From: an uncultured Paracoccaceae bacterium
Lineage (GTDB): Bacteria > Pseudomonadota > Alphaproteobacteria > Rhodobacterales > Rhodobacteraceae
Length of the DNA stretch: 64,000 bases
Assembly (NCBI GenBank): GCA_938092015.1
Contig: CALKOT010000031.1
Location: 1 to 64,000, forward strand
Reading direction: 5' to 3'
Shown: positions 31,113 through 48,392 of the stretch, in pieces
Numbering within the stretch: position 1 is the stretch's first letter
Layout of the letters: every line of letters begins with the position of its first letter
Program-made: the position numbers and the translations under genes
Notes under the pieces: model-generated
What the model saw: only the letters and a program-made list of their open reading frames with translations
Databases searched by the model: none
Told to the model about the DNA's origin: nothing

Positions 31113-31764
31113 AGGAAGGTGCTTCTCGCGGGTCGAGCGCGCGTTGGATGTAGGCGTCCATCTGGGGTTTGTAGACCTCCCACGCTGCTGCGATGGCTTC
31201 GATGGGGCAGTCTTCTGTCCAGTCACAGCGGAGGTCTGCGGCTGGCCATTGAACCTTGTCGCAAATCTGCATGCCAGCGGAGTGGACGGGCCCAGCCTCT
31301 CCCCCCGCCGCCAGCCCGGCGCGCATGGCTGCGATCAGCCGGTCGCCGAGGTGGCCGGTCGTTCGCTCAAACCCGTCCACGATGGCCTGCGGCACATCTT
31401 CATTGGCAAGCATATTGCCAGCCGCGATGACGTCTTTACCCGCTGCATCCGTCCAGACGCCCAGCGAGTTCGGGCCAGAATGGATCGCCGTGCCGCCCTT
31501 TGCGTCAATCGCCAGAACCTGCCGGTATTCGATGAAACGGCCCTGATCGCGGACGCCTGCAACAGCCTCTGCCGCCGACATGCCGCCCTGCATCAGGTCC
31601 AGCGCGAACGGCCCCAGCGTCGGGTCAGTGATGTTCTGGCTGGCGACGGCGCCAACTCCCGCCCGCGTATACGCGCAGCGCGCGGCAACGGCGGGAGAGG
31701 ATGATGACACCGCAATGCCGAACATGCCCGTTTCGGCGCATCGGGCGACCAGTGAAAAAGTCAT
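31090..31764 (-). CDS. DUF1028 family putative Ntn-hydrolase
   Basis: About 224 residues. The start at 31764 (MTFSLVARCAETGMFGIAVSSS) overlaps the RidA stop as ATGA, the same coupling used elsewhere in the operon; the longer frame to 31815 runs into ridA. Sequence features are the N-terminal SLVARC, GVGAVASQNITDPTLGP and AGGEAGPVHSAGMQI of DUF1028. The family resembles Ntn hydrolases, and I know of no assigned reaction. It lies between RidA and a Rieske oxygenase. Confidence 0.87.
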   Translation of the reverse strand: MTFSLVARCAETGMFGIAVSSSSPAVAARCAYTRAGVGAVASQNITDPTLGPFALDLMQGGMSAAEAVAGVRDQGRFIEYRQVLAIDAKGGTAIHSGPNSLGVWTDAAGKDVIAAGNMLANEDVPQAIVDGFERTTGHLGDRLIAAMRAGLAAGGEAGPVHSAGMQICDKVQWPAADLRCDWTEDCPIEAIAAAWEVYKPQMDAYIQRALDPREAPSYGVPGDE

Positions 31765-32189
31765 TTCGAATACCCCGCTGGGATCACGGCAGTTCCGTCG
31801 ATTTCCACCAGCCATTCGGGTCGCGCCAAAGCCTGCACCACCAACCCCGTTGAAACGGGATGCACGCCTTTGATGTACTCGCCCATCGTCCGGTAGACCG
31901 CCTCGCGGTGCCGCACATCGGTGATGTAGACGACGACCTTCACAAGATGCGCCATCTCACCGCCCACTTCTTCGATCAGCTGGCGGATATTCTGCATCAC
32001 CTTGTGGGTTTGGGCGACCGGATCATGGCTGTCGAGATTGACAGCGTCATCGAGGTTCTGCGGGCACTGGCCGCGCAGCCAGACCGTTTTGCCGCCCTCT
32101 GTCACCACAGCCTGACAGAGATCATTGTCGAGGTTCTGTTCCGGATAGGTGTCAGAGGTATTGAATGTGCGGATGCGAGTATGAGCCAT
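31761..32189 (-). CDS. RidA/YjgF family enamine/imine deaminase-like protein
   Basis: A 142-residue member of the RidA (YjgF/YER057c) family. LCQAVVTEGGKTVWLRGQCPQNLD (about 25-48), DPVAQTHKVMQNIRQLIEEVGG (about 56-77) and the C-terminal RPEWLVEIDGTAVIPA are typical. RidA proteins hydrolyse reactive imines released by PLP enzymes or amine oxidation. In an operon with oxygenases that may act on amines, it could clear an imine intermediate. That coupling is inferred. Confidence 0.88.
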   Translation of the reverse strand: MAHTRIRTFNTSDTYPEQNLDNDLCQAVVTEGGKTVWLRGQCPQNLDDAVNLDSHDPVAQTHKVMQNIRQLIEEVGGEMAHLVKVVVYITDVRHREAVYRTMGEYIKGVHPVSTGLVVQALARPEWLVEIDGTAVIPAGYSK

Positions 32190-32204
32190 GTTCGTGTCCT
32201 CAGA

Positions 32205-33329
32205 TCAGGCGCCGCTGCGCACTTTGCCATAGATATACTGGGCGAAATCGTAGTTCGGACGCTCAAGATGGCTGAGATGGCCAGGCTCCGCATGGCCTGA
32301 GCACAAGCCTTTGTAGACTTTTTCGGTGCAGCCACGATCCTCGATGTTCACATCATCAAGAAGCGTTTTCAGCGCCGCAAAATGCTTCTGCGCATCTGGG
32401 TCGTTCACATAGTCAGGCGACATACCGCCGCCAAAGCCGATCTGCACCTGCCCGACACCGTTCGGGTGCAGGCAGAGGTACCAGAAATATCCGGGTGTCA
32501 GCGTGATCAGCAGGCTGGGGTAGATCGCCAACAGATAGGTCATGCGGCGGCGGTCGCCTTCCAGCGTCGTGTTGCTGGGATGCGCCAGCGCGATCTTCAG
32601 CGTGTCGTCCTTCAGGATCGTGTGGTAGTTGAACGCCGCCTCGCCGGGCGGGCAGATCATTTCTTCCAGCTTGGAAAGCCCGCCGATCGTGCCCGCATGG
32701 CAGACCGGCAGGTGGTAGCTTTCCATAAAGTTCTCGGCCAGCACCTTCCAGTTCGTGTCCCAAAGGTGCGTCTCGTAAAACGTCTCAGTATAGGCGCCCA
32801 TGTTGTAGTCGCCGACGAGATCTTCGACCGATTTCAGCTGCGTCGCCACGGCGGGTGCATCAGGGTTTAGCGAGACGAAGATCCAGCCCTGCCATTCCTC
32901 ACAGCGGATATCGGGGAGGGCATAGTCACCTTTACAGAACCCTTCGTTCTGCGTCATCGCCGGTGCGCCGCGGAGGGAGCCATCGAGGTTGTAGGTCCAG
33001 GCATGATACGGACAGACGATGGATTTGGCGTTGCCGCGCCCTTCAAGAAGGGTCGACATGCGGTGGCGGCAGACATTGGACATGGCACGCAGGTCGCCTG
33101 AGCCGTCGCGCAGTACGATGATTGGCTGGTTCGCCAATTCCAGCGTCGTGTAATCGCCCGCTTTCGACAGCGCATCGGCGCGTCCGGCGCAGAACCAGTC
33201 CTGCGCGAAGATATGATCCAGCTCTGATTTCAGAAATTCGTCTGAGGTGTAGACTGAGGGCGGCATCGCCCGCGCCTCTTCAAACCGCACCGCGACATTC
33301 GCCGCCAATTCCCGAACCGCTTTGTTCAT
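32205..33329 (-). CDS. Rieske non-haem iron oxygenase, alpha subunit (2)
   Basis: About 374 residues from ATG 33329 (MNKAVRELAANVAVRFEEAR), preceded by AAAGGCGGCGAG; the longer frame to 33440 has no support. The Rieske motif is CRHRMSTLLEGRGNAKSIVC-PYHAWTYNLDG and the iron site NWKVLAENFMESYHLPVCHA. The pattern resembles quaternary-amine demethylating oxygenases (GbcA/Stc2 type). It is first gene of the operon that also encodes a second alpha-type oxygenase; the two may form a mixed oligomer or act in sequence. Confidence 0.88.
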   Translation of the reverse strand: MNKAVRELAANVAVRFEEARAMPPSVYTSDEFLKSELDHIFAQDWFCAGRADALSKAGDYTTLELANQPIIVLRDGSGDLRAMSNVCRHRMSTLLEGRGNAKSIVCPYHAWTYNLDGSLRGAPAMTQNEGFCKGDYALPDIRCEEWQGWIFVSLNPDAPAVATQLKSVEDLVGDYNMGAYTETFYETHLWDTNWKVLAENFMESYHLPVCHAGTIGGLSKLEEMICPPGEAAFNYHTILKDDTLKIALAHPSNTTLEGDRRRMTYLLAIYPSLLITLTPGYFWYLCLHPNGVGQVQIGFGGGMSPDYVNDPDAQKHFAALKTLLDDVNIEDRGCTEKVYKGLCSGHAEPGHLSHLERPNYDFAQYIYGKVRSGA

Positions 33330-33758
33330 TTCTCGCCGCCTTTCCGATCTCGTCAGTGGTGTTGTCGCTGTTTTGACATGAGTCGCGCAACTCTCACCCT
33401 TATCGCGATCAATATCAGCGATCTGATAAGGTGAAAGCAAACTTTTGTGCAGCTTTAGTTAGGTGTGGACTAAGATGATGTAGGACTAACATCCGCCAAG
33501 CAGAACCGTTGGGGCGAGCGACCAGCTCGGCCCGCGCCCAGCCACCCCCCGGGCGGGCGCACTGCAGCGCTGCAAGTTATTTATAAGTAGGATGTACTCG
33601 GCCCGATAAACCACCAGGCAAATAAGACATCGTTTGCCCACCTGTGGCTGGCCGCGGGCCTTAGTGCTTTATGGCAAAGCCTGTCCTTCCCACGCGAACC
33701 GCTTGCGCCTTGCCATTCCCTCCCCCATCCTCGCCAAAACGACCCAAGGGAGGCCCCG
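33330..33758. promoter_or_regulatory. Divergent promoter region between the Rieske operon and the gentisate-dioxygenase-like gene
   Basis: No gene is visible. TTAGT (33455-33459) and ACTAA (33469-33473) form an inverted repeat with a 9-base spacer, close to the LysR-type TTAG...CTAA pattern at 27785. This suggests, weakly, shared control by the operon's LysR protein. AGGGAGG at about 33747-33753 is the ribosome site of the plus-strand gene. Confidence 0.45.
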
Positions 33759-34880
33759 ATGGCCAAAGTCCGTGAAAACCACCGCGAAAACGTCGCTGGC
33801 CGCGCCAATGTCGAGGACACGCCAGAACTGCTCGCCTACTACGATGAATTGGAAAAGTTCGAAGCAGGCGCCCTCTGGACCGTCGCCAACAAGATCGAAC
33901 CGTGGGAGCCTGTCAGCCAGTCCATCCCCGTCGTCTGGCGCTACAAGGACTTGCGCGAACACGTCCTGAAATCGCTCGAACTGGTCACCGCCGAAAAGGC
34001 GGGCCGCCGCGTGATCTACATGAACAACCCCGGCCGTACTGATGTGGCCGCCGCCGTCGGTTGGATCTACGCAGGCCTGCAGGTGATGAACCCCGGTGAG
34101 GTTGCGACGGCCCACCGCCACTCCGCCTCCGCCATCCGTTTCATCATGGAGGGGACGGGCGCCTACACCGTCGTCGACGGCCACAAGATGACGCTGGGCG
34201 AGAACGACTTTGTGCTCACCCCCAATGGCACATGGCACGAGCATGCCGTCGAAGCCGATGGCAGCGTCTGCATCTGGCAAGACGGCCTCGATATCCCCTT
34301 TGTGAATGCGATGGAGGCAAATTTCTTTCAGGTCCACCCCGACCTGAGCGAGCCTGTCGCCTTCCCGGTCGATGACATGACCAAAACATGGGGCAACGCG
34401 GGCCTGACGCCGTCGAGCGGCGATTGGGACAAGGGCTATAGCCCGATGTTCAAATACGAATGGGCGCCAACTTATGAGGCGCTGACAAAATACGCCTCAT
34501 GCTCCGATGGATCGCCCTATGACGGGATCATGATGGAGTACGTGAACCCCACAAACAACGGCCCGGTGATGAAGACGATGGGCGCCTCAATGCAGATGCT
34601 CCGCCCTGGTGAGCATACAAAAGCGCACCGCCACACCGGCAGTTATCTCTATCACTGCGCCAAAGGGTCGGGCCATTCGATCATCAACGGGAAGCGCTAT
34701 GACTGGTCCGAACGGGACATCTTCTGCGTGCCGTCCTGGGCGTGGCACGAGCACGTAAACGCCTCCGCCACCGACGATGCCTGCCTCTTCTGCCTGAACG
34801 ACCTGCCTGTGATGCGGGCACTTGGACTGTATCGCGAAGAGGCTTTGGGCGAAAACAATGGCAACCAGCCAATAGTTTGA
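33759..34880 (+). CDS. Gentisate 1,2-dioxygenase-like bicupin
   Basis: A 373-residue bicupin ring-cleavage dioxygenase. Cupin 1 (about residues 105-180) has EVATAHRHSASAIRFIMEG with the HxH pair, and GTWHEHA. Cupin 2 (about 280-350) has EHTKAHRHTGSYLYHC and WAWHEHV. The family includes gentisate and 1-hydroxy-2-naphthoate dioxygenases, which cleave between a carboxyl- and a hydroxyl-bearing carbon using Fe(II). It is followed after 7 bases by an FAH hydrolase, the usual next enzyme. The substrate is probably gentisate or a substituted salicylate. Confidence 0.83.
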   Translation: MAKVRENHRENVAGRANVEDTPELLAYYDELEKFEAGALWTVANKIEPWEPVSQSIPVVWRYKDLREHVLKSLELVTAEKAGRRVIYMNNPGRTDVAAAVGWIYAGLQVMNPGEVATAHRHSASAIRFIMEGTGAYTVVDGHKMTLGENDFVLTPNGTWHEHAVEADGSVCIWQDGLDIPFVNAMEANFFQVHPDLSEPVAFPVDDMTKTWGNAGLTPSSGDWDKGYSPMFKYEWAPTYEALTKYASCSDGSPYDGIMMEYVNPTNNGPVMKTMGASMQMLRPGEHTKAHRHTGSYLYHCAKGSGHSIINGKRYDWSERDIFCVPSWAWHEHVNASATDDACLFCLNDLPVMRALGLYREEALGENNGNQPIV

Positions 34881-34887
34881 GGGTCAC

Positions 34888-35808
34888 ATGAAACTAGTCA
34901 CATACCGCGCCTCGGTTGAGGCGGAGGCGCGATTGGGCGTCATCGTTGGCAATCAGGTGCTGGACGCCGAAGCGCTGGGCGACGTCTATGGCGAGGATAT
35001 CCCGTCATCGATGCTCGACCTGATCGACACAGGCCGCGCGGGCGTCGATGCGTTGCGCGAGATTGTGGAGGAGGCCGGCGATAACCCGCCGATCCATACC
35101 TCCACCGCCCTCGCAAACGTAAAACTGCTCGCCCCCATCCCGCGCCCCCGCAAAAACATCTTCGGGATTGGTTTGAACTATCTCGACCACATCACCGAAA
35201 GCGCCAAGGCCCTCGACACCGACGACGCGCTGCCGAAAGAGCCGGTCGTGTTTTCCAAGCCCCCGACCGCCGTCATCGGCCCGGGCGACGCGATCCGCCA
35301 CGACAGCTCCATGACCCAGCAGCTGGATTGGGAGGTTGAACTGGCCGTCATCATAGGTCGGCAAGCAACACGGGTCAGCCACGAAGACGCGCTCAGCTGC
35401 GTGTTCGGCTATTCGGTGATGATCGATGTCTCCGCCCGCGACAACCGCCGGGCCGGGCAGTGGATTTTTTCCAAAGGCATGGACACCTTCGCGCCCTTCG
35501 GGCCGTGCATCGTGACGGCGGACGAGATCACCGATCCACAGTCGCTGGACCTATGGCTGACGGTGAACGGGGTTGAAAAGCAACGCTCCAACACCTCGCA
35601 CATGCTGTTCAAGGTTGATGAGCTGATCTCAGACATCTCAACCGGCATCACGCTGGAGCCGGGCGACATCATCGCCTCAGGCACCCCCAAAGGCGTCGGC
35701 GCCGGGCGTGACCCGCAGGAATGGATGTGGCCCGGCGATCGGGTTGTTGCCTGCGTCGAGGGCATCGGCATGATTGAACATCACGTGGTGGATGGGACGC
35801 CGAAGTAA
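34888..35808 (+). CDS. Fumarylacetoacetate hydrolase family protein
   Basis: A 306-residue FAH-fold hydrolase. Motifs are IFGIGLNYLDHITESAK (about residues 91-107), VVFSKPPTAVIGPGDAIRH, the metal-binding DWEVELAVIIG (E-x-E) and the C-terminal LEPGDIIASGTPKGVGAG. It would hydrolyse the acylpyruvate (fumaryl- or maleylpyruvate) formed after gentisate-type ring cleavage. It forms a two-gene operon with the upstream dioxygenase, with GAGGG upstream. Confidence 0.88.
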   Translation: MKLVTYRASVEAEARLGVIVGNQVLDAEALGDVYGEDIPSSMLDLIDTGRAGVDALREIVEEAGDNPPIHTSTALANVKLLAPIPRPRKNIFGIGLNYLDHITESAKALDTDDALPKEPVVFSKPPTAVIGPGDAIRHDSSMTQQLDWEVELAVIIGRQATRVSHEDALSCVFGYSVMIDVSARDNRRAGQWIFSKGMDTFAPFGPCIVTADEITDPQSLDLWLTVNGVEKQRSNTSHMLFKVDELISDISTGITLEPGDIIASGTPKGVGAGRDPQEWMWPGDRVVACVEGIGMIEHHVVDGTPK

Positions 35809-36402: not shown

Positions 36403-37341
36403 TCACTGGACCCGGATCAAGCCTTGCCGTTCGGCCTCATCACCGGGCTGCTTAACGTCCCAAGCAAGCCCAAGCTTTTGAAGTACCGAGATGAATACGA
36501 AGCCGGGATCGGTCTGACCTTCTTCCACCCCTAGTTTCGCCGAGTATGGAAAGGCATGATGATTTCCGTGCCAATTCTCACCAAACGTAATCAATCCCAA
36601 GTGAGGTATGTTATAGCCTTGAACTGGCAGGCCTGTGATCTTCCAGCCCTGTTGGCCTTGCCGATGAGCGAAATGCCCCACTATCCAATGACCAGACAGC
36701 GAAACAAATACCCTCAGACAGCACCCCCAAAGAACCCAAGCCCAGCCCCCTAGAGCGAACAATAGCAAAGCCAGTGGTAGCTGCTGCGGCATCCAAGTCG
36801 CTTCTGAGAATGTGTAGAACCGGTCACGACTAACCCGACTTTCCAGAACTAACTTCGGTGCACTGCGAAGTTTGAATTCACAACACAGCTGCCAAAACGC
36901 ATCTTTGAAGAAACCTGCTCGATGAGACGGATGGTCAGGGCACTGTTTCTGGCGTTGATGCCAATCTCGCAAGTCATGAATGCGGATCATGCCAATTGGT
37001 CCAGCCATGCCAACAAGTGTCCCGAGCCATACAAGAATGTATTTCAGCCAAGTAGGCGTGGAAAAACTGCGATGAATCAGAAGACGGTGCATCCCAACAG
37101 AATGCCCCGCGCAAATCGTCAACGCTGTGAGTGTAAGGAAGACCAAGAGAGCATCCACTTGCGGGAACAGGAATACACCTGCAATCCCAAGCAAGCCATT
37201 GCTCAAAAGCCAAAGTGATTTGGTGGGCAAAACAGCAATTCGCCCATCCTCCGCTGAAACTTCAGGCCCGACTATGAAACGTTCGAAGGAAACTAAATCA
37301 CTCATCCTAGCTGAGTTGTATATGTTCGCTGTGGATTGCAA
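36403..37341 (-). CDS. Membrane fatty-acid desaturase
   Basis: A 312-residue integral membrane di-iron desaturase. Histidine boxes are HSVGMHRLLIHRSF, HDLRDWHQRQKQCPDH and HGNHHAFPYSAKLG, between hydrophobic segments (about 50-100 and 185-215). This is the acyl-CoA/acyl-lipid delta-9-type family. ATG 37341 gives the listed length; an in-frame ATG at 37305 (MSDLVSFERFIVG) is equally possible, as neither has a clear ribosome site. The base composition is visibly more AT-rich than its neighbours, which suggests later acquisition. Confidence 0.83.
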   Translation of the reverse strand: MQSTANIYNSARMSDLVSFERFIVGPEVSAEDGRIAVLPTKSLWLLSNGLLGIAGVFLFPQVDALLVFLTLTALTICAGHSVGMHRLLIHRSFSTPTWLKYILVWLGTLVGMAGPIGMIRIHDLRDWHQRQKQCPDHPSHRAGFFKDAFWQLCCEFKLRSAPKLVLESRVSRDRFYTFSEATWMPQQLPLALLLFALGGWAWVLWGCCLRVFVSLSGHWIVGHFAHRQGQQGWKITGLPVQGYNIPHLGLITFGENWHGNHHAFPYSAKLGVEEGQTDPGFVFISVLQKLGLAWDVKQPGDEAERQGLIRVQ

Positions 37342-37838: not shown

Positions 37839-38885
37839 ATGCTCCAAGAACGCATCGAAGGCAAATGGCTCGCCTGCTTCCGGCGGGTCTTTGCGCTCAA
37901 CGGCATCAAAACGAAAACCACCGTCGCCGTCATCTCGGAAACGCAGTCGCGCCCCGTTCTGATCCACCTGTCAGAGCTTGCCCTCTACGACCTCGGCGCG
38001 GATTTCTGCATGATCCAGATGCCAACCCCACCGCAGACCGCGCCTGTTCCGGTCAAAGGCACCGGCACGTCGATGGCCGTCCAGCAGAACCGCGCCGCCA
38101 TTGAGGCGATGAAGCAGTGCGAGGTGATCGTCGACTGCACCGTCGAAGGCATGATCCACGCCGCTGAGTGGCCAGAGATTGAAGCCGCCGGCGCCCGCAT
38201 CCTCGTCGTCACCAACGAGCACCCGGAAATTCTGGAACGGACGGAGCCAAAAGCCGAACTCGCCCCCAAAGTCGATCTCGGCGTCCAGATGCTGAGCGAA
38301 GCGAAAGAAATGCGCATCACCTCCGCCGCTGGCACGGACTTAACCGTCGACCTGACCGATGCGCCCTGCGGCGGTACGCCGGGCTTTGGCACGAACCCGG
38401 GCCATGTCGCGCATTGGCCCGGCGGCCTCTGCCTCGCCTTCCCCGGACCAAACACCGTCAACGGCCGCATCGTCATGGACGTGGGCGACATGAACCTCAC
38501 GTTCAAAACCTATCTCGCGTCCCCAATCGACTTCACCGTGGAAAACGACTTCGTCACCGAAATCAAGGGCGACGGCCTCGATGCCGAACTATTCCGGGAA
38601 TACATGGCCGCGTGGAAGGATCCGCTCGCCTACGGCTTTTCCCATGTCGGCTGGGGCATGAACCCCGACGCCCGCTGGGTATCGGGCGCGCTTTATGACA
38701 AGCGCGATATGCAAGCCGTCGAATTCCGCGCCTGGGCCGGAAACTTCCTCTGGTCCACCGGCGCCAACCAATACGCAGGCCGCTTCACAGAAGGCCATTT
38801 TGACTTGCCCATGCGCCGCTGCACCATCGCACTTGATGGTCAGATCGTCGTGAAAGAGGGCGTTTTACAAGGGGATCTCGCCTGA
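37839..38885 (+). CDS. NicX-like (2,5-dihydroxypyridine 5,6-dioxygenase family) protein
   Basis: A 348-residue protein similar along its length to pseudomonad NicX: AHWPGGLCLAFPGPNTVNGR, IVMDVGDMNLTFKTYL, then AYGFSHVGWGMNPDARW and GHFDLPMRRC. The three iron ligands known for NicX (His, His, Asp) match His269, His320 and Asp322. NicX opens 2,5-dihydroxypyridine to N-formylmaleamate. The N-terminal 100 residues are less conserved, so the substrate may be a different heterocycle. The TGA overlaps the next ATG (TGATG), making it the first gene of a tightly coupled four-gene operon. Confidence 0.78.
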   Translation: MLQERIEGKWLACFRRVFALNGIKTKTTVAVISETQSRPVLIHLSELALYDLGADFCMIQMPTPPQTAPVPVKGTGTSMAVQQNRAAIEAMKQCEVIVDCTVEGMIHAAEWPEIEAAGARILVVTNEHPEILERTEPKAELAPKVDLGVQMLSEAKEMRITSAAGTDLTVDLTDAPCGGTPGFGTNPGHVAHWPGGLCLAFPGPNTVNGRIVMDVGDMNLTFKTYLASPIDFTVENDFVTEIKGDGLDAELFREYMAAWKDPLAYGFSHVGWGMNPDARWVSGALYDKRDMQAVEFRAWAGNFLWSTGANQYAGRFTEGHFDLPMRRCTIALDGQIVVKEGVLQGDLA

Positions 38886-40204
38886 TGAGCGTTCCAGCCG
38901 ACTACTACGACATGACCCGCGTCCGCCCAGAGGTCGCTAAAGTCCTGACCCGGATCAACGAACTAGGCCCGACCTTCGCCGAGCGCGCTGTTGGCATCGA
39001 CATCGACGCGAGTTTCCCGGTCGAGAACTACAAGGATCTGGCGGCTGAGGGCTTCATGACCCTGACCGTGCCAAAAGAACACGGCGGCCACGAATTCAGC
39101 CTCGGTGAATACGCCATGGTTGGTGCCGAGATCGGCAAATATTGCGGCGCTACGGCGCTGACGTTCAACATGCACAACTCGACCATGATGTGGTCGCGCT
39201 TCATGTACGAGATGCCCCATCTTACGGACGAAGACTGCGCCGCCTTCGCCCCTCTTCGCGCCCGTCAGTTCAAACGAGCCGTCGCCGAACAGGGGATCTA
39301 TTCGCAGCCGATTTCCGAGGCCGGCAACAACTGGACGTCAAAGCCGATCCAGACCAACTGCGTGAAGGTCGATGGCGGCTGGAAGATCAACGGCTTCAAG
39401 AAATTCGCCTCGCTGGCGGGGTACTGCGACTACTACTCCATCGTCTGCACGGAACATTTTGCAGGCGAGGAACCGCGCCACGAAGACACGATGATCTTCG
39501 TCGTTCACAAGGACGCTGTTGGCCTGTCCGTAAAGGGCGAATGGGACCCCCTCGGCATGCGCGGCACCAACAGCCGCGACCTTATCCTGAAGGACGTTTT
39601 CGTCACAGAAGATGACCTTCTGATGCCCCCCGGCCTCTTCATCAAAACGCTGCCCTACTGGCCCCACATGATGGCGACGCTCAGCCCAACCTATATGGGT
39701 GTCGCGCAAGGCGCCTATGATTTCACGGTCGGATATCTAAGCGGCAAACTTCCCGGCATGCCGCCAATCGACCGGCGCATGTTCGCCACCAAACGCCACG
39801 CCGTCGGCCAGATGTACGCGCGCCTGTCCTCAATGCGCGCCCTTTGGTGGCAAGCGTTTATGGAGGCTCAAGGCCTGCCGACCCAGGCGCAGGTCCTGCG
39901 CATGTATTCGGCCCAGTACAACGTGATGGAAGGGGTGCAGGAAATCGCTGCACTGGCCATCCGCACCTGCGGCGGTCAATCGATGCTTAAGTCGCTGCCC
40001 TTAGAACGCATGTACCGCGACAGCCGTTGCGGCGCGCTGATGCTGCCCTACACGACCGAGATTATGGAAGACTACATGTCTGTCCTCACCCTCTATGATG
40101 AGGATGAGCTGGACGAGCTTCCGGGTGACGAAGGCGGCGCGCGATCCTCCCTCTGGCGCGGCAATAAGGCTGCGTGGGACGGCGACCAGATCGCGGCGGA
40201 ATAA
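38885..40204 (+). CDS. Acyl-CoA-dehydrogenase-fold flavoprotein
   Basis: A 439-residue member of the acyl-CoA dehydrogenase superfamily. GFMTLTVPKEHGGHEFSLGEY, WKINGFKKFASLAGYCDYYS, DPLGMRGTNSRDLILKDVFV and a C-terminal helical domain (RTCGGQSMLKSLPLERMYRD) are visible. The usual catalytic Glu is not obvious to me. Given the NicX-like neighbour it could be a flavin monooxygenase of the DszC/HpaB-related branch instead of a dehydrogenase. It is coupled at both ends (TGATG and TAATG). Confidence 0.8.
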   Translation: MSVPADYYDMTRVRPEVAKVLTRINELGPTFAERAVGIDIDASFPVENYKDLAAEGFMTLTVPKEHGGHEFSLGEYAMVGAEIGKYCGATALTFNMHNSTMMWSRFMYEMPHLTDEDCAAFAPLRARQFKRAVAEQGIYSQPISEAGNNWTSKPIQTNCVKVDGGWKINGFKKFASLAGYCDYYSIVCTEHFAGEEPRHEDTMIFVVHKDAVGLSVKGEWDPLGMRGTNSRDLILKDVFVTEDDLLMPPGLFIKTLPYWPHMMATLSPTYMGVAQGAYDFTVGYLSGKLPGMPPIDRRMFATKRHAVGQMYARLSSMRALWWQAFMEAQGLPTQAQVLRMYSAQYNVMEGVQEIAALAIRTCGGQSMLKSLPLERMYRDSRCGALMLPYTTEIMEDYMSVLTLYDEDELDELPGDEGGARSSLWRGNKAAWDGDQIAAE

Positions 40205-41478
40205 TGCGCCAGCAGGTGCAAAGCGTCGCCGTATCCAAGGCGTCACCGGATGCGATTTGGGCTGTTGCGGGCGATTTCTTCACCCCGTGGCATCCCGCGA
40301 TTGCGACGATGGCGGCAGAGGCCGGGCAGGTGCGTGCTTTCACCGTGGCGGGGGAAGGTAAGACATATCGTGAACGGCTTACCTATCTCAGCAACAGCGA
40401 CCGTACGTATGCCTATACCCATGTCGAAGGAATCGAGGGCGTGCATCGCTATGATGCGCGGCTGACAGTCAGTGAAGGGCAAAGTGGTGGCAGCGTGATC
40501 AAGATGTCCGCCGATCTCTCAGCGCCAGCCGGGCGGGCGGAAGAGATTGCCAGCGGTACGCAGGCGATTTTTGATGATGGCGTCACCACGCTGGCAAAAC
40601 TGGTGGAGGCCACTTCGCCTACTGCGGCGATCGCAAGGGCCTTGGGAACGTCGCCAATCGAAACGCTGCTTCTAGACGATCTTCCCCAACTCGCCCTATC
40701 CGTCACTCCGCCGAAACCCGGCCCGCTGTGCCTCTTCCTTCACGGTATCGGCGGCGCCCGCACCAACTGGGCAGCCCAACTTCCCGCCGCTGGCGCCGTA
40801 ACTCAAGCCGCCGCGCTGGATCTGCGCGGATATGGCGACAGTACGCTTGGCGCGGACCAGACGACCATCGACGACTACTGCGCCGACATCCTGCGCATTC
40901 GTGAGGCTTTAGGCGCAGATAAGCTGATCCCTTGCGGCCTTTCCTACGGCTCATGGATCGCAACGTCCTTTGCGATGCGCCATCCTGATCTGCTTTCTGG
41001 TCTCATCCTATCCGGTGGTTGCACGGGCATGTCCGAGGCTGGGCCAGATGAACGGGACGCCTTCCGCCTGTCACGCGAAACCCCGCTAAACGCTGGCCAG
41101 ACACCGGCCGATTTCGCATCAGCTGTGGTCGATGTGATCGCCGGGCCGGATGCGGATGAAACCGCGCGCAATGACCTCCACGCCTCCATGTCCGCAATCC
41201 CCACGGCGACCTACCGTGATGCGCTGACCTGTTTTACCAACCCGCTAGAAAGATTTGATTTTACCAAACTGACCATGCCCGTCCTTATGATGACGGGCGA
41301 ACATGACCGTCTTGCCCCGCCTGCCGAAATTCGAACGGTCGCTGGCCGCATCTATGACAGCGCATCGCGGCCCGATGTGCAGTTTGAAGTCATTGGAAAT
41401 GCTGGACATGTTTGCAATCTTGAGGCGCCAGATCCTTATAACCGCCACCTCATAGCGTTCCTCAAACGCCTCGCATGA
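40204..41478 (+). CDS. SRPBCC domain fused to alpha/beta hydrolase
   Basis: About 424 residues from ATG 40204, which overlaps the previous stop as TAATG; the longer frame from 40174 lies inside that gene. Residues 1-145 form an SRPBCC/polyketide-cyclase-like domain (SVAVSKASPDAIWAVAGDFF, then RLTYLSNSDRTYAYTHVEG). Residues about 175-420 form an alpha/beta hydrolase with CGLSYGSWIA (Ser247), MTGEHDRLAP (Asp) and GNAGHVCNLEAP (His). In nicotinate catabolism the NicX product is deformylated by an alpha/beta hydrolase (NicD), so the C-terminal domain may do the same here. The fused binding domain is unusual. Confidence 0.8.
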   Translation: MRQQVQSVAVSKASPDAIWAVAGDFFTPWHPAIATMAAEAGQVRAFTVAGEGKTYRERLTYLSNSDRTYAYTHVEGIEGVHRYDARLTVSEGQSGGSVIKMSADLSAPAGRAEEIASGTQAIFDDGVTTLAKLVEATSPTAAIARALGTSPIETLLLDDLPQLALSVTPPKPGPLCLFLHGIGGARTNWAAQLPAAGAVTQAAALDLRGYGDSTLGADQTTIDDYCADILRIREALGADKLIPCGLSYGSWIATSFAMRHPDLLSGLILSGGCTGMSEAGPDERDAFRLSRETPLNAGQTPADFASAVVDVIAGPDADETARNDLHASMSAIPTATYRDALTCFTNPLERFDFTKLTMPVLMMTGEHDRLAPPAEIRTVAGRIYDSASRPDVQFEVIGNAGHVCNLEAPDPYNRHLIAFLKRLA

Positions 41479-42158
41479 CCGCGCTTCCCCGCCGCCAGCA
41501 GAACCGGATCGCCAAGAAAAAGCGCATATTGGAAGCGGCGCAAACCGTCTTCGCCAGCGAAGGCTATTCCGGGGCGACGATGGATGCCGTGGCGACGAAG
41601 GCGGGCCTGACGAAGCCGACGCTCTACCAGTATTTCGCAAGCAAAGAGGCGCTGTTCGCCGCCATGATGACGGCCCGCCGCGATGATATGTTGTTGGCAT
41701 TCGAAGCGCCGAAGCAGGCATCGATGGTCGCACAGCTATACGCATTCGCCTGGGCCTACGCCGACACAGTGATGCGTCCCGATCTGCTGTCCCTCGCCCG
41801 ACTGATCATAGGTGAGGCGCAGCGCTTTCCTGAGATTGGCCAGACCTATCAGGCATCCGGCCCCGACCGGGTACTGGCGGGAATGATGGACTATCTCACC
41901 ACCCAGCGCGACGCCGGACGATTGGTGTTCGAGGATGCTGAACTTGCGGCGCAGGACCTGTGGGGCTTGATCCTGTCCGCGCCCCGGACGCTGGCGTTGT
42001 ATCAGCCTGATGATCCGCCTGCCCGGACAGAGGTCGCGCGGTATCTTGAGAACGGCTTACGGATGTTTTTGCGGGCATATTCGGTAGATGCAGCGGGGGA
42101 TGTCGCAGAGTTGGATAAGGTTATCGCAGCGTCTCAAAGCACGCGTCCGCGGACTTGA
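41475..42158 (+). CDS. TetR family transcriptional regulator
   Basis: A 227-residue TetR protein. The N-terminal HTH reads AKKKRILEAAQTVFASEGYSG, then ATMDAVATKAGLTKPTLYQYFASKEALFAAMM (about residues 12-65). The AefR-like C-terminal ligand domain spans about 75-210. The ATG overlaps the hydrolase stop (ATGA). It is the last gene of the NicX-like operon and probably autoregulates it with a pathway metabolite as inducer (inference). Confidence 0.9.
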   Translation: MTALPRRQQNRIAKKKRILEAAQTVFASEGYSGATMDAVATKAGLTKPTLYQYFASKEALFAAMMTARRDDMLLAFEAPKQASMVAQLYAFAWAYADTVMRPDLLSLARLIIGEAQRFPEIGQTYQASGPDRVLAGMMDYLTTQRDAGRLVFEDAELAAQDLWGLILSAPRTLALYQPDDPPARTEVARYLENGLRMFLRAYSVDAAGDVAELDKVIAASQSTRPRT

Positions 42159-42365: not shown

Positions 42366-43199
42366 TTACAAACCACCCACAAACCCACTCACCATCCCCA
42401 CCACGATCGGTCCAACACCGCCATCCAGATCATGTCCCATACCGGCAATTTCTTCATATTTTGCCCCGGGCACGCGATCAGCGATGTCCCGTCCATGCTC
42501 AACTGACAGCAGCGCATCTGAATCGCCATGGATCACCAGCGTCGGTGTCGTTATCTCACTCAGCCGCCCGGCCATCCCGTCGCCCGCCATCACCGCCATG
42601 CCCTGCCTCATCACCCCATCAGGGCGATAAGACCGCTCAATCGCGCGGATGATGAACGCCCGCCGCTCTGCCTCATCAAACGGAAAGCCGGGGCTGCCCC
42701 AGACGTGGTCACAATGGAGGATGTGATCGACCACTCCGTCCAGATCCTTCGCCGGATCACCGGGGTCGGCGAAGAGAAGCGCCTCCATCTCTGGCGAGCG
42801 GCCCGGCAGCCCCTCCGCTCGTGACGAGGACATGATGATAGTGGCGCTCAGCAGCCGGTCGCGATGGTCCAGCAGCATCGATTGCAGGATCATGCCGCCC
42901 ATCGAAATGCCAAGAACATGGGCGCGGGCAATCCCCAGCGTATCCAGCGCCCCGATCCCATCAGCGGCCATGTCAGCGACAGTGTAGGGCGGCGCATCGT
43001 TGAACATCTGGCTCAGCCCGGCGTCGCGGTTGTCATAAGTGATGACGTGAAACCCGGCGGCAATAAACCCGTCAATCATGTCTTGAGGCCAGTGAATGAT
43101 CTGCGAGCCCAGCCCCCGGATCATCAACAGCGGCGCCCCGGTCGGATCGCCGTGACGCTCAACCTCAATATCGATTCCGTTCGCCTTGATTTGCGCCAT
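42366..43199 (-). CDS. Alpha/beta hydrolase (esterase-like)
   Basis: A 277-residue alpha/beta hydrolase. Oxyanion-hole region MIRGLGSQIIHWPQDM, nucleophile elbow GISMGGMILQ (Ser), acid in HGDSDALLSVEHG, and His in GMGHDLDGG. GGAGGG precedes the ATG. It lies between the TetR gene and the divergent peptide-type importer, so it could hydrolyse an imported ester, amide or lactone. The exact substrate is unknown. Repeat copy A begins 3 bases after its stop. Confidence 0.85.
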   Translation of the reverse strand: MAQIKANGIDIEVERHGDPTGAPLLMIRGLGSQIIHWPQDMIDGFIAAGFHVITYDNRDAGLSQMFNDAPPYTVADMAADGIGALDTLGIARAHVLGISMGGMILQSMLLDHRDRLLSATIIMSSSRAEGLPGRSPEMEALLFADPGDPAKDLDGVVDHILHCDHVWGSPGFPFDEAERRAFIIRAIERSYRPDGVMRQGMAVMAGDGMAGRLSEITTPTLVIHGDSDALLSVEHGRDIADRVPGAKYEEIAGMGHDLDGGVGPIVVGMVSGFVGGL

Positions 43200-43379: not shown

Positions 43380-44963
43380 ATGGATGAACTGAAATATCTT
43401 GGCCGCAAGGTCGCAACCGGCGCGTTGAACCGCCGTGACTTCATGGGCCGCGCTTCCGCGCTAGGCCTGACTGCTACTGCAGCATCTTCGATGATGGCGG
43501 GCGCTGCCAAAGCCGCCGGACCGCAAAGAGGCGGCACATTGCGCGCGGGCGTTCAGGGCGGTGAAAGCACCAACAGCCTTGATCCAGCGACCTTCGCTTC
43601 GTCTGTACCTTACATGCTGGGCCGCTGCTGGGGCGACACCTTGGTCGGCGTAGACGCGGGCGGCAATGTCGTCGGGCGCCTAGCTGAAAGCGTTGAAGCA
43701 TCCGATGACGCGACCTCATGGCGCTTCAAGATGCGCCAGGGCGTTGAGTTCCACAACGGCAAGACTGTGACAGCCGAAGATGCGCTGAAGACCATGCAGC
43801 GCCATTCCGGCGAAGATACGAAGTCCGGCGCACTGGGCATCATGCGCGGCATCGAAAGCATGTCCACCGACGGCGATACGCTGGTCGTGAACCTGTCCAG
43901 CGGCAACGCTGACCTTCCCTATCTGATGGCGGACTACCACCTGATCATTCAGCCCGATGGCGGCATGGATAATCCGGCGGCAGGCATCGGTACCGGCGCC
44001 TATAAGGTCGAAGTTGATGAGCCAGGCGTGCGCCATTCAGCCGTCCGCAATGAAAACGACTGGGATCCGGATCGCGGTTATGCTGATTCAGTTGAGATCC
44101 TGGTGATCAACGACGCAACGGCCCGCACTGCTGCGCTGCAGGGCGGCCAGGTCGACATGATCAACCGGGTTGAGCCGAAGATCGTTGATCTTGTGAAACG
44201 CGTCCCAGGCGTCACGATCCAGAACGTTGCGGGCCGCGGTCACTACGTCATGATCATGCACACCAACACAGGACCGTTCGACAACAACGACCTGCGCATG
44301 TCGCTGAAATACGCGATTGATCGTCAGGAAATGGTCGACAAGATCCTGCGTGGGTACGGCACTATCGGTAACGACCTGCCAATCAACGCGTCGTACCCGC
44401 TGTTCGACGCCTCGATCCCACAGCGTGAGCATGACCTCGATAAGGCCGCCTTCCACTACAAGAAATCCGGCCACGACGGATCACCGATTGTTCTGCGCAC
44501 TGCAGACGCGGCGTTCCCGGGCGCTGTCGACGCCTCTGCCCTGTTGCAGCAGAGCGCAGCGAAAGCTGGCATTCCGCTTGAAGTCAAGCGTGAGCCTAAT
44601 GACGGCTACTGGTCTGAGGTCTGGAACAAACAGCCGTTCTGCTGTTCTTACTGGGGCGGCCGGCCAACGCAGGACCAGATGTATTCGACAGCCTATCTGT
44701 CGAGCGCTGACTGGAACGACACCCGGTTCAATAACCCGGCTTTCGACGACCGTCTCGTTCAGGCGCGGGCTGAGCTGGATCTGGACAAACGCAAAGGCAT
44801 GTATTCCGAAATGGCCTACATGTTGCGCGATGAAGGCGGTCTGATCTGCCCGATGTTCAACGACTTTATCGACGCGCGCGGCGATCGGGTCGGCGGGTTC
44901 GAAAATGACCCGAATGGCGAGCTGATGAACGGCTACGCCCTTGCGAAGTGCTGGGTGGCTTAA
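43380..44963 (+). CDS. Peptide-type ABC transporter binding protein (SBP_bac_5), Tat-exported
   Basis: A 527-residue periplasmic protein of the DppA/OppA family. The N-terminus has a twin-arginine motif (NRRDFMGRASALGLTATAAS), cleavage likely near AKAA. RGGTLRAGVQGGESTNSLDP, WRFKMRQGVEFHNGKTVTAEDAL (split around residue 120) and LRMSLKYAIDRQEMVDKILRG are family signatures. AGGGGAGA precedes the ATG. First gene of a four-gene importer operon. In this group such systems import di- and oligopeptides but also opines, cyclic amides and other non-peptides. Confidence 0.9.
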   Translation: MDELKYLGRKVATGALNRRDFMGRASALGLTATAASSMMAGAAKAAGPQRGGTLRAGVQGGESTNSLDPATFASSVPYMLGRCWGDTLVGVDAGGNVVGRLAESVEASDDATSWRFKMRQGVEFHNGKTVTAEDALKTMQRHSGEDTKSGALGIMRGIESMSTDGDTLVVNLSSGNADLPYLMADYHLIIQPDGGMDNPAAGIGTGAYKVEVDEPGVRHSAVRNENDWDPDRGYADSVEILVINDATARTAALQGGQVDMINRVEPKIVDLVKRVPGVTIQNVAGRGHYVMIMHTNTGPFDNNDLRMSLKYAIDRQEMVDKILRGYGTIGNDLPINASYPLFDASIPQREHDLDKAAFHYKKSGHDGSPIVLRTADAAFPGAVDASALLQQSAAKAGIPLEVKREPNDGYWSEVWNKQPFCCSYWGGRPTQDQMYSTAYLSSADWNDTRFNNPAFDDRLVQARAELDLDKRKGMYSEMAYMLRDEGGLICPMFNDFIDARGDRVGGFENDPNGELMNGYALAKCWVA

Positions 44964-44974
44964 GGGCCACTTTA

Positions 44975-45931
44975 ATGCACCCCATATTGAAACTGGTGGC
45001 TCAGCGCGTTGCGCTGAGCCTCCTCCTCCTCTCCGCCGCGTCTGCGCTGATCTTCATTGGCACGAACATTCTGCCGGGCGACGTCGCGCAATCCATTCTT
45101 GGCCAATCCGCAACGCCTGAGGCGCTGGCGAACCTTCGCCGCGTTCTGGGCCTGAACGAACCGGCCATCACCCGCTATTTCGACTGGCTGTTTGGCGCGC
45201 TACAGGGTGACCTTGGCACAGCGCAGACAAATGGCCGGGATATCGCCGAAAGCCTTAGCAAGCGCCTGACCAATACACTGTTCCTAGCCTTCTGGGCCGC
45301 CATCGTCTCAGTCCCACTGGCGATCTTGCTGGGCCTATTGGCCGTTCGGTACAAAGACCGCTGGCCTGACAAATTGATATCCGGCGCAACGCTCGCTTCG
45401 ATCTCGATCCCAGAATTCCTCATCGGCTATGTGCTGATGTTTTACCTCGGCGTACAGCTGCGCTGGTTCCCTTCGGTCGCTGCAATCCGCGATGGGATGA
45501 GCCTTGGCGACAAGCTTGAGGTGATCGCCCTGCCCGTCATGGTGCTGACGTTGGTGGTCCTCGCTCACATGATGCGCATGACCCGCGCGGCCATCCTGAA
45601 CGTGATGCAGTCAGCTTACATCGAAACGGCTGAGCTGAAGGGCCTTAGCGGCCTCCAGATTATCTGGCGACACGCGTTTCCTAACGCCATCGCACCGATC
45701 GTAAACGTGGTTATGTTGAACCTGGCTTATCTGGTCGTCGGTGTCGTCGTGGTGGAGGTGGTCTTCATCTATCCCGGCATGGGGCAGTATCTGGTGGATC
45801 ATGTATCCAAGCGCGACATCCCGGTCGTTCAGGCCTGCGGCCTGATCTTCGCGGCTGTCTATATCGGCCTGAACCTGATTGCAGACCTTGTCTCAATCCT
45901 CGCCAACCCGCGCTTGCGGCACCCGAAATAG
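44975..45931 (+). CDS. Peptide-type ABC permease (DppB-like)
   Basis: About 318 residues from ATG 44975 (MHPILKLVAQRVALSLLLLS); an earlier in-frame start at 44948 lies inside the previous gene. It has six predicted spans, ILPGDVAQSILGQSATPEAL in the first periplasmic loop and ELKGLSGLQIIWRHAFPNAIAPI as EAA loop. It forms the channel with the 45944 product. Confidence 0.9.
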   Translation: MHPILKLVAQRVALSLLLLSAASALIFIGTNILPGDVAQSILGQSATPEALANLRRVLGLNEPAITRYFDWLFGALQGDLGTAQTNGRDIAESLSKRLTNTLFLAFWAAIVSVPLAILLGLLAVRYKDRWPDKLISGATLASISIPEFLIGYVLMFYLGVQLRWFPSVAAIRDGMSLGDKLEVIALPVMVLTLVVLAHMMRMTRAAILNVMQSAYIETAELKGLSGLQIIWRHAFPNAIAPIVNVVMLNLAYLVVGVVVVEVVFIYPGMGQYLVDHVSKRDIPVVQACGLIFAAVYIGLNLIADLVSILANPRLRHPK

Positions 45932-45943
45932 GAGGAGGGAGCG

Positions 45944-46762
45944 ATGCGAAACATACCTATCAGCGCCCTCATCGGGCTGTTCTTCACCGGGCTTTACTTT
46001 CTGGGCGCGATTTTCGCCCAGCTGATCGCCCCCTACGGCGTCGCCGAAGTCGTCGGCGATGTGTGGGAGCCTTCTTCGGCCAAGTTTTGGCTGGGCACCG
46101 ACAACATTGGCCGTGATCTCCTCAGCCGTATGATCTTTGGCGGGCAAACGACGATCTTCATCGCCGCTTCAGCCACGCTCTTGTCATTTACCACCGGCTC
46201 AATCCTTGGGTTCACGGCGGCGGTGACGGGCGGTTGGGTCGATCAGGCGCTGAGCCGGTTCATCGACCTCATCATCTCGCTGCCGACGCTGATCTTCGCC
46301 CTCGTGGTCCTGTCGGTCATGCCTGTGACGGTGTTCGTGCTGATCGTCCTGATGGGCCTTCTGGACAGCACCCGCGTCTTCCGTTTGGCCCGCGCCGTTG
46401 CGGTCGATATCAACGTGATGGACTACGTCGAAGCGGCGCGCCTGCGGGGCGAGAAAACCGCCTGGATCATCTTCCGTGAGATCCTGCCGAACGCGCTGTC
46501 ACCGCTGGTCGCCGAAATGGGCCTTCGTTTCATCTTCATGGTACTCTTCGTCTCAACTCTCTCGTTCCTCGGTCTCGGCATCCAGCCGCCCGCCGCGGAC
46601 TGGGGCGGGATCGTGAAAGAGAACAAGGACGGCATCGTTTATGGCATCCCGGCCGCGCTGGTCCCGGCTATCGCCATCGCGACGCTGGCGATCTCGGTCA
46701 ATCTGGTAGCCGACTGGATCCTGAACCGCACGACTTCACTGAAAGGGGGCCGGGGTGGCTGA
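45944..46762 (+). CDS. Peptide-type ABC permease (DppC-like)
   Basis: A 272-residue permease. WLGTDNIGRDLLSRMIFGGQ (about residues 48-67) is the DppC hallmark, and AARLRGEKTAWIIFREILPNALSPL is the EAA loop. GGAGGAGGGAG is a strong ribosome site. Its end overlaps the GTG start of the ATPase gene by 8 bases. Confidence 0.92.
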   Translation: MRNIPISALIGLFFTGLYFLGAIFAQLIAPYGVAEVVGDVWEPSSAKFWLGTDNIGRDLLSRMIFGGQTTIFIAASATLLSFTTGSILGFTAAVTGGWVDQALSRFIDLIISLPTLIFALVVLSVMPVTVFVLIVLMGLLDSTRVFRLARAVAVDINVMDYVEAARLRGEKTAWIIFREILPNALSPLVAEMGLRFIFMVLFVSTLSFLGLGIQPPAADWGGIVKENKDGIVYGIPAALVPAIAIATLAISVNLVADWILNRTTSLKGGRGG

Positions 46763-48392
46763 TATTCTGCTCGACGTCACCGGCCTGAAGATCGAAGCGA
46801 CGGCGTACCCTCCGGGTGAGCCGCCGCAGGATATCACCATTGTTGAGGACGTGTCCTTTCAGGTCGAAAAGGGCAAAGTGCTTGGCCTGATCGGAGAGTC
46901 TGGCGCTGGCAAGTCCACCATTGGCCTCAGCGCTATGGCCTATGGCCGGGGCGGGGTGCGGATCACTGGCGGCGTAATCAATATCAATGGCCGCGATATC
47001 CGGGTTGAGGGCACCGGTGGCCTGCGCAAATTGCGGGGCGCCGAGGTGACCTATGTCGCCCAGTCCGCCGCCGCCGCGTTCAACCCCGCCAAACGGCTGA
47101 TGGAGCAGATCGTTGAGGCGACGCTGGCCCATGGGCGGCATTCGCGAAAAGAGGCTGAAAGCCGCGCGGTTGAGCTGTTTGGCAAGCTTGGCCTGCCGGA
47201 ACCAGAGACATTCGGCTCTCGCTTCCCACATCAGGTCTCTGGCGGACAGTTGCAACGGGCGATGACGGCCCTCGCGCTTTGCCCTGAGCCTGATCTGGTG
47301 GTGTTTGATGAGCCGACTACGGCGCTGGATGTCACCACCCAGATCGACGTGCTGGCGGCGATCAAGGAAGCGATCCGTGATACTGGGGTAGCCGCGCTTT
47401 ACATCACACATGACCTCGCTGTTGTGGCGCAGGTCAGCGACCACATCATGGTGCTGCGGCATGGCAAGATGGTTGAGTACGGCGACACTGATCAGATCAT
47501 CAACCGACCCGCGATGGACTATACGCAGGCGCTGGTCTCGGTCCGGTCCACCGACCATGAAGAAAAAACGCCTTCGCCTCAGCCGATCTTGACTGTGGAA
47601 GGCGTTACTGCCCGCTACAAGAACGCCCCAGCGGATGTGCTTCGAAACGTGAATGTCGAAATTCATCCCGGCCAGACACTGGCGGTTGTAGGCGAGTCTG
47701 GTTCAGGCAAATCCACACTGGCCCGCGTCATCACCGGGCTGCTTCCTCCTAGTGCTGGCAAGACGGTGTTTGATGGGCGGACCCTTCCGCCATCTCTGCC
47801 TGAACGAACCAAGGAAGAACTGCGCGAACTGCAGATGATCTACCAGATGGCCGACGTCGCGATGAACCCGCGCCAGACCATCCGCACGATCATTGGCCGC
47901 CCGTTGGAATTCTACTTTGGCCTGCGCGGCGCTGAAAAGACCCGCCGCATTCAGGAACTGCTGGATGAGATTGAGCTGGGCGACGGCTATATCGACCGCT
48001 ACCCGGCTGAGTTATCGGGTGGTCAGAAACAACGTGTCTGCATCGCCCGCGCGCTGGCGGCAAAACCGAAACTGATCATCTGCGATGAGGTGACCTCAGC
48101 CCTTGACCCATTGGTGGCCGATGGCATCCTGAAGCTGCTGCTGGACCTGCAAAAACGGGAAGATGTTGCGTACCTCTTCATCACCCACGATCTGGCGACG
48201 GTGAAGGCCATTGCGGATAGCATTGCGGTGATGTTCCAGGGTGAAGTCGTTCGATACGGACCGAAATCCCAGGTCCTTAGCCCACCCTTTGATGACTATA
48301 CCGATCTGTTGCTGTCATCAGTCCCGGAAATGCGGCTTGGGTGGCTGGAAGATGTCATTGAAAACCGCAAGATGGAGAGTGCGGGGAATTAG
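46755..48392 (+). CDS. Fused double ABC ATPase (DppD-DppF-like)
   Basis: A 545-residue protein with two complete ATPase halves. Half 1 (1-265) has GESGAGKST, VSGGQLQR and VVFDEPTTALD. Half 2 (about 275-535) has GESGSGKST, LSGGQKQR and IICDEVTSALD. A GTG start at 46755 with GGGGGCC upstream is used. Most Opp/Dpp systems have two separate ATPases; single-chain fusions are known for YejF/GsiA-type systems. It completes the importer operon. Repeat copy B lies 34 bases after its stop. Confidence 0.9.
   Translation: MADILLDVTGLKIEATAYPPGEPPQDITIVEDVSFQVEKGKVLGLIGESGAGKSTIGLSAMAYGRGGVRITGGVININGRDIRVEGTGGLRKLRGAEVTYVAQSAAAAFNPAKRLMEQIVEATLAHGRHSRKEAESRAVELFGKLGLPEPETFGSRFPHQVSGGQLQRAMTALALCPEPDLVVFDEPTTALDVTTQIDVLAAIKEAIRDTGVAALYITHDLAVVAQVSDHIMVLRHGKMVEYGDTDQIINRPAMDYTQALVSVRSTDHEEKTPSPQPILTVEGVTARYKNAPADVLRNVNVEIHPGQTLAVVGESGSGKSTLARVITGLLPPSAGKTVFDGRTLPPSLPERTKEELRELQMIYQMADVAMNPRQTIRTIIGRPLEFYFGLRGAEKTRRIQELLDEIELGDGYIDRYPAELSGGQKQRVCIARALAAKPKLIICDEVTSALDPLVADGILKLLLDLQKREDVAYLFITHDLATVKAIADSIAVMFQGEVVRYGPKSQVLSPPFDDYTDLLLSSVPEMRLGWLEDVIENRKMESAGN

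Follow-up and report, generated by a model that had tools for sequence, protein, structure and literature searches.

A NicX-like gene cluster of Rhodobacteraceae and rhizobia as a candidate operon for the opening of a nitrogen heterocycle

Closest described systems and the four-gene operon

The dioxygenase NicX binds its iron through His265, Ser302, His318 and Asp320 and forms hydrogen bonds to its substrate via His105, Glu177 and His189, and in the accessible part of its description 2,5-dihydroxypyridine is the sole substrate reported (PMC7910607). Here we describe a four-gene operon which starts with a relative of this enzyme and which is found on a stretch of 64,000 nucleotides, in the following called the window, from an uncultured Paracoccaceae bacterium (GCA_938092015.1, contig CALKOT010000031.1, positions 1 to 64,000). 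The genome to which the window belongs comprises 4.59 Mb in 138 contigs. Judging from the iron site of the NicX-like protein, the partner genes and their linkage, a ring-opening function of this operon is likely.

Ring opening of N-heterocycles with anthranilate as end product has been described with other enzymes. The Aqd route of 2-alkyl-4-quinolones makes use of an oxygenase and a ring-opening step and ends in anthranilate. The iif and iad routes of indole and auxin also reach anthranilate via an oxygenase and ring opening (PMC12538310, PMC11630574). Compared with the window operon by description only, the Aqd, iif and iad routes differ in that other proteins are described for them, and the available portions of the sources do not mention a NicX-type enzyme. 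From anthranilate a further branch leads via 5-hydroxyanthranilate to gentisate in Nocardia opaca (PMC4539516). The conversion of indole to gentisate has also been reported, and the accessible part of a 2018 review states that the genes of this gentisate branch were unknown at that time (PMC6221969). Among the matches listed, judged by titles and the beginnings of abstracts, no open-access paper describes the present cluster, and none was found that names its gene set together.

The operon had been recognised in an earlier note, made from the sequence alone, as four genes joined by stop/start overlaps, and we find the open reading frames and the junctions TGATG, TAATG and ATGA exactly as described there (Table 1). 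For gene 3 the mechanical reading-frame start is the GTG at 40174, the overlapping ATG at 40204 being the better start. Pfam bore out the identities given to genes 2 to 4, that is an acyl-CoA-dehydrogenase fold, an SRPBCC plus alpha/beta hydrolase protein and a TetR regulator. Neither Pfam nor NCBIfam matched gene 1 at E 0.001, and it owes its name to its match to NicX in the PDB.

Table 1. Operon genes and neighbouring features in the window
Feature	Coordinates	Strand	Evidence
Gene 1, NicX-like mononuclear Fe(II) ring-cleaving dioxygenase (NicX fold)	37839..38885	+	PDB 7cn3 187 bits, E 5.4e-54
Gene 2, acyl-CoA-dehydrogenase-fold flavoprotein, probable two-component flavin monooxygenase	38885..40204	+	Pfam Acyl-CoA_dh domains
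Gene 3, SRPBCC (Polyketide_cyc2)-alpha/beta hydrolase fusion, probable N-formyl/N-acyl amide hydrolase	40204..41478	+	Pfam
Gene 4, TetR-family regulator with AefR-like C-terminal domain	41475..42158	+	Pfam TetR_N, TetR_C_7; 86/94 sources
Gentisate 1,2-dioxygenase family (bicupin), recurrent cluster member	33759..34880	+	PDB 3bu7 554 bits
Fumarylacetoacetate/fumarylpyruvate-hydrolase (FAH) family, recurrent cluster member	34888..35808	+	shares family cluster c9 with FAH genes of relatives
Peptide/nickel-type ABC importer (binding protein, two permeases, double ATPase), membership uncertain	43380..48392	+	profile matches

The earlier note had named conservation of the four-gene set as a check. 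We counted the genes with tblastn in 96 sources (the window, L031-L045 and L055-L134), which after removal of 2 duplicates left 94 distinct ones, i.e., 93 loci and the window; the distant relatives L046-L054 stand outside these counts. Since the identity thresholds vary by gene and some loci lie on short contigs, the counts per gene are lower bounds, and as the 80 loci from the scan of named genomes are the best 80 of 202 the sample is skewed toward close relatives. All four core genes were present in 86 of the 94 sources, and in all 86 of them they occurred in the same order, on one strand and within 6 kb, a linkage which is far beyond chance. Individually the NicX-like gene was counted in 94 sources, the flavoprotein in 93, the SRPBCC-hydrolase in 92 and the TetR gene in 86. 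The named-genome loci come from Sulfitobacter, Shinella, Mesorhizobium, Rhizobium, Gemmobacter, Tabrizicola, SAR116 and others, and plasmid records of Ensifer, Shinella, Sinorhizobium and Aminobacter carry the cluster at 79-86% identity; many of the carriers are bacteria of soil or of the sea. Within the family, 27 of 198 genomes have some NicX relative and 12, own genome included, have one at at least 69% identity. As no NicX relative was found in the only further member of the genus that was sampled and close carriers are this few, we regard the cluster as a patchy accessory element.

Iron site, substrate pocket and partner enzymes

A phmmer search of the PDB with gene 1 (E up to 1) returned a single distinct sequence, namely NicX of Pseudomonas putida KT2440 (7cn3, 7cnt, 7cup), with homology over nearly the full length. 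The iron ligands His269, His320 and Asp322 listed in the earlier note are confirmed by the alignment, which adds Ser306 as the fourth; His107 and His192, the counterparts of the substrate-binding His105 and His189, are kept as well. In 82 NicX-like sequences, window included, the equivalents of His265, Ser302 and His318 are retained throughout and that of Asp320 in 81, and both substrate-binding histidines are invariant. The hydrogen-bond set of NicX is nevertheless incomplete, since Glu177, the residue touching N and O of the pyridone, gives way to Thr in 80 and to Val in 2 of the 82 sequences (T180 in the window). Glu308 of NicX is exchanged for Tyr in 80 and Phe in 2 (Y312 in the window), and the position of Cys76 is Gly in the alignment with NicX, this column being gapped in the 82-sequence alignment.

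Two further groups help to place these changes. A second subfamily (L013-L018) has Val or Ile at the position of Glu177 and Phe at that of Glu308, and L019-L022 retain both glutamates but have Phe in place of His105. A maximum-likelihood tree supports the window clade at 100/100 and its union with the second subfamily, apart from NicX, at 100/99, with long branches flagged. The NicX-like protein probably belongs to a sister subfamily of NicX and is probably not a 2,5-dihydroxypyridine dioxygenase. As the iron site is intact and the pocket altered, the chemistry is probably shared with NicX and the substrate probably a different one.

Members of the second subfamily (L013-L018, L048-L051) are accompanied by a short hydrolase that stands alone, and four loci have the flavoprotein as well. 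At about 260-267 amino acids the hydrolase of L048-L050 leaves no room for a fused SRPBCC domain, and in these three loci the gene after the flavoprotein is of the AMP-ligase family (family checked in L048). In L051 reading frames of 286, 159 and 748 amino acids lie downstream; the longest, 62% identical to a stretch of L086, is by eye what we take to be a molybdenum hydroxylase subunit.

Plasmid records call homologues of gene 1 'peptidase M29' or 'leucyl aminopeptidase' and a peptide-type importer lies downstream in the window, and one might thus suppose that gene 1 is an M29-type aminopeptidase and that the operon processes peptides delivered by the ABC transporter. We disfavour this idea as highly improbable: the iron ligands of NicX including Ser302 are conserved with one exception at Asp320 among the 82 sequences, no PDB sequence other than NicX is matched, and the importer occurs in just 2 of the 94 sources.

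The nearest PDB sequences of the flavoprotein are 5gj7 and 5z8t with 130 bits, the latter entitled a flavin-containing monooxygenase, and acyl-CoA dehydrogenases follow at 87 bits and lower; no papers were found for the two structures. An AlphaFold model (mean pLDDT 81.9) matched 5gj7, 5z8t, true acyl-CoA dehydrogenases, nitrososynthases and the indole-bound TdsC, all within about two orders of magnitude. With monooxygenases and dehydrogenases ranking this close the fold alone leaves the assignment undecided, and it is carried by the absent catalytic Glu and by the reductase neighbours. The C-terminal stretch RDSRCG[AS]LMLP[YFW]T, found in 26 of 26 aligned rows, has no Glu at the usual position of the dehydrogenase catalytic residue, and at the helix-G position, read by eye, there is no Glu either. 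Both types taken together, 74 of the 94 sources have a flavin reductase near the cluster (type C in 69, type N in 36). Gene 2 is therefore probably a two-component flavin monooxygenase rather than a dehydrogenase. It shares with such enzymes of the acyl-CoA-dehydrogenase fold (5z8t, TdsC/DszC and presumably the IacA-type indole oxygenases) the fold, the missing Glu and, in most relatives of the window cluster, the nearby reductase. It differs from 5gj7 and 5z8t in that the model is just 26% identical to them and that no partner reductase adjoins it in the window. That acyl-CoA-dehydrogenase-like proteins oxidise indole is stated in the accessible part of the 2018 review (PMC6221969).

As in the NicX operon, a hydrolase is encoded together with the dioxygenase. 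All 23 aligned rows share its residues Ser247, Asp368 and His402. The nearest folds to its AlphaFold model (mean pLDDT 90.8) are esterases and an enol-lactonase, and the amide hydrolase 3kxp (E-2-(acetamidomethylene)succinate hydrolase) appears at rank 39.

Recurrent neighbours and the ring that may be opened

The earlier note had proposed a heterocycle-degradation operon. What stands of this proposal is the Fe(II) dioxygenase of the NicX fold, the flavoprotein at the position of a monooxygenase, the hydrolase, the TetR regulator and their linkage; the suggested pyridine, pyrrole or lactam substrate is weakened, as the lactam contact Glu177 of NicX is replaced. Its gene set also has to be widened to a larger cluster, for it left out the gentisate dioxygenase and FAH genes at 33759-35808. 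These two genes lie about 2 kb upstream of the operon, with a desaturase-like gene of opposite orientation in between. The gentisate dioxygenase, which scores 301 bits against NCBIfam gentisate_1_2 and is thus under the cut-off of 442, is 81% identical to the copy in the Aminobacter cluster, and the FAH protein is 73-77% identical to those of several relatives.

Both genes recur beside the core, FAH in 38 and gentisate dioxygenase in 35 of the 94 sources, together with nitrilase-family genes in 23, GntR in 37, a glutamine-synthetase-like (GS-like) gene in 78 and an APC permease in 57. The fullest order is GntR, gentisate dioxygenase, FAH, nitrilase-family, reductase, NicX-like, flavoprotein, SRPBCC-hydrolase, TetR, GS-like, reductase and APC. 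The nitrilase-family genes always occur with FAH (24 of 24 sources before deduplication), which suggests that in these clusters the ring cut by the gentisate dioxygenase carries nitrogen, as 5-hydroxyanthranilate would. With the gentisate branch of anthranilate and indole degradation these loci share a gentisate dioxygenase and an FAH gene, here within the same gene cluster. They differ from it in the kind of evidence, the link being genomic only here and that branch being known from metabolites in the accessible parts of the sources (Cain 1968; Claus and Kutzner 1983, via PMC4539516, PMC6221969).

A second link leads to anthranilate itself. In 10 of the 94 sources, from Shinella, Mesorhizobium and Rhodobacteraceae, a CoA ligase (c16) lies 7.8-8.9 kb downstream of the start of the NicX-like gene, in 9 of them on the same strand. 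Its best PDB match is an anthranilate-CoA ligase with 274 bits, followed by a benzoate-CoA ligase with 254, and against the NCBIfam benzoate-CoA-ligase family 353 and 359 bits were obtained, just below the cut-off of 375. In two Shinella loci (L157, L158) genes for tryptophan 2,3-dioxygenase and importer components lie past the ligase, as do an oppositely oriented kynureninase gene and a PRK08255-type homologue which is 54-55% identical to the enzyme of our own genome and about 11-12 kb away from the ligase. The tryptophan 2,3-dioxygenase and the kynureninase of L157 both exceed the NCBIfam cut-offs; tryptophan dioxygenase was counted in 3 of the 94 sources. The own genome has on contig 1 a ligase (79%) and a PRK08255-type monooxygenase within 4 kb, the latter above the NCBIfam cut-off for salicylyl-CoA 5-hydroxylase/oxidoreductase. 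This family includes 2-aminobenzoyl-CoA monooxygenase/reductase.

The gentisate dioxygenase, FAH and CoA-ligase neighbours point to a benzo-fused ring, and as a tentative first choice we propose that an N-heterocycle of the indole or 4-quinolone type is opened to give anthranilate or a hydroxylated form of it. Derived from aromatic amino-acid metabolism, this substrate would be hydroxylated on its N-ring by the flavoprotein, supplied in our own genome by a flavin reductase encoded elsewhere. The NicX-like Fe(II) enzyme would then, by inserting O2, split the C-C bond that joins the hydroxylated carbon to its neighbour beside the nitrogen, the cleavage product being an N-formyl (or N-acyl) anthranilate-type compound from which the SRPBCC-hydrolase would take off the formyl or acyl group. 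Anthranilate could be activated by the 2-aminobenzoate-CoA-ligase-like enzyme or could alternatively leave as 5-hydroxyanthranilate or gentisate into the branch of gentisate dioxygenase and FAH. TetR would repress the operon until the substrate is present. A more far-reaching version appears doubtful to us, namely an undescribed indole- or tryptophan-derived route in which a NicX-fold enzyme opens the pyrrole or quinolone ring and the full cluster, in which 5-hydroxyanthranilate would be handled by gentisate dioxygenase, FAH and a nitrilase-family amidase, represents the missing genes of the gentisate branch.

Several points weigh against this scheme, of which we infer the substrate, the order of the steps, the products and the regulation. 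True acyl-CoA dehydrogenases are also among the top fold matches of the flavoprotein, and the window has neither an adjacent flavin reductase nor the GS-like gene, three genes with flavin-reductase domains being found elsewhere in the own genome. The ligase and its partner could serve salicylate instead of anthranilate, and the lead of the anthranilate-CoA over the benzoate-CoA ligase match is small (274 versus 254 bits). The association of ligase and cluster at the genome level is weak (8 of 12 cluster-carrying genomes versus 58 of 186 others, one-sided p 0.016, kinship ignored). Ligase and FAH occur together in just 2 loci, hence either could be a neighbour and not a partner. The GS-like gene and the APC permease are without a firm role, and the maleate-isomerase-like and nitrilase genes of some loci also fit a pyridine route.

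Such a route, in which the operon opens a monocyclic dihydroxypyridine (or pyrrole) by hydroxylation through the flavoprotein, cleavage to an N-formyl amide by the NicX-like enzyme and deformylation by the hydrolase, and a nitrilase-family enzyme and a maleate isomerase finish the degradation in the manner of the nic pathway, is in our view unlikely but deserves serious weighing. NicX is after all the only sequence relative of gene 1 in the PDB, and nitrilase-family genes occur in 23 of 94 sources; a maleate-isomerase-like gene is present in two Mesorhizobium loci (L072, L081). The latter name is tentative, NCBIfam giving just EutA and arylmalonate-decarboxylase matches below the cut-offs. The pyridone contact Glu177, however, is Thr in 80 of 82 sequences, and the large subunit of a molybdenum-hydroxylase-like enzyme, which one would expect to act upstream of such pyridines, searched with two query reading frames named by eye, was found in only 1 of the 96 sources (L086). 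As the nitrilase gene never occurs without FAH it belongs with the gentisate branch, and the links to gentisate and anthranilate-type genes would be left unexplained. Compared with the nic nicotinate pathway the relatives have the maleate-isomerase-like gene in 2 and the molybdenum-hydroxylase-like gene in 1 of 96 sources, NicC and NicF not having been searched in them. Proteins of the NicA, B, C, E and F types did not surface in Pfam and NCBIfam scans of 28 window proteins, in which no gene-by-gene search was made, and a second NicX relative was not found in the own genome at E <= 0.001, other nic genes not having been searched there. Homarine degradation was also considered as the pathway and was dropped, as nothing usable was found in the literature.

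The frequent GS-like gene and APC permease would find a role if an aromatic amine of the tryptamine, serotonin or tyramine type were imported by the permease and gamma-glutamylated by the GS-like enzyme, the ring genes then acting on the conjugate or the acid. GS-like enzymes glutamylate aniline, according to the accessible part of the source (PMC4539516). A second GS-like gene and a P450 are found nearby in six sources, and L160 and L163 have a pyridoxal-phosphate-dependent (PLP) decarboxylase and an HpaD-like reading frame (81% and, over a partial match, 84% identical to HpaD of L091). Yet the best GS-like match of our own genome is just 30% identical and the gene is missing from 16 of 96 sources, among them a few on short contigs, which means that it is not needed for the core reaction, and the genes of the second cluster give the main GS-like gene no direct role. 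We thus consider this explanation rather improbable; it overlaps with the opening of a benzo-fused ring and does not exclude it.

The second cluster beside L160 (4685-18425), L163, L159 and L162 consists of GS-like, P450 and class-I amidotransferase genes and is possibly a route for a gamma-glutamylated aromatic amine. L159 and L162 add a 2Fe-2S ferredoxin, and L160 and L163 the PLP decarboxylase and HpaD-like genes, a set which looks like a DOPA or tyramine route and would suit an aromatic amine as the substrate further upstream; a LigB-type dioxygenase is also present in L160.

Surroundings of the operon and implications

Downstream of the operon the earlier note had seen a peptide-type importer and a further hydrolase. 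The ABC importer is present, with the hydrolase in between on the opposite strand, and may be an uptake system in this genome. As a general partner it did not hold, as it recurs in 1 of the 93 other sources, the SAR116 locus L062, where importer permeases with 53-58% identity are located after the cluster; the APC permease occurs in 57 of 94. The hydrolase (42366-43199) was rejected as a member, its sole match being 25% identical (L033). The desaturase-like gene (36403-37341) was also rejected as it has no match in the other 95 sources; fatty-acid-desaturase-like and encoded on the minus strand, it fills the space from FAH to the operon, where relatives such as L060 and L065 have a flavin reductase. 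Two Rieske oxygenases (29976-31226, 32205-33440), GbcA-like below the cut-off, were likewise discarded, because beyond the window they were found just in L126 among the 96 sources and with 25-26% identity.

The region 20785-33440, with a polyamine-importer-type binding protein, an OYE/FadH-like flavoprotein (25638-27707), an acetylornithine-deacetylase-family protein and the two GbcA-like Rieske oxygenases, looks like a locus for betaine or an N-methyl compound. A sarcosine-oxidase/GcvT-type fusion under the cut-offs of the models (52984-55374) is perhaps another methylated-amine gene, and at 8282-11383 there is a BM3-like cytochrome P450 fused to flavodoxin/FAD reductase domains.

If our reading of the operon is true, the rare NicX enzyme class would be extended to other rings by a widespread sister subfamily which combines an unchanged iron site with a remodelled pocket and is encoded in a fixed operon. 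Should the product be anthranilate or 5-hydroxyanthranilate, rhizobia and marine Rhodobacteraceae would have in this cluster a link from derivatives of aromatic amino acids to gentisate, and a branch which is known from metabolites alone would receive its genes.

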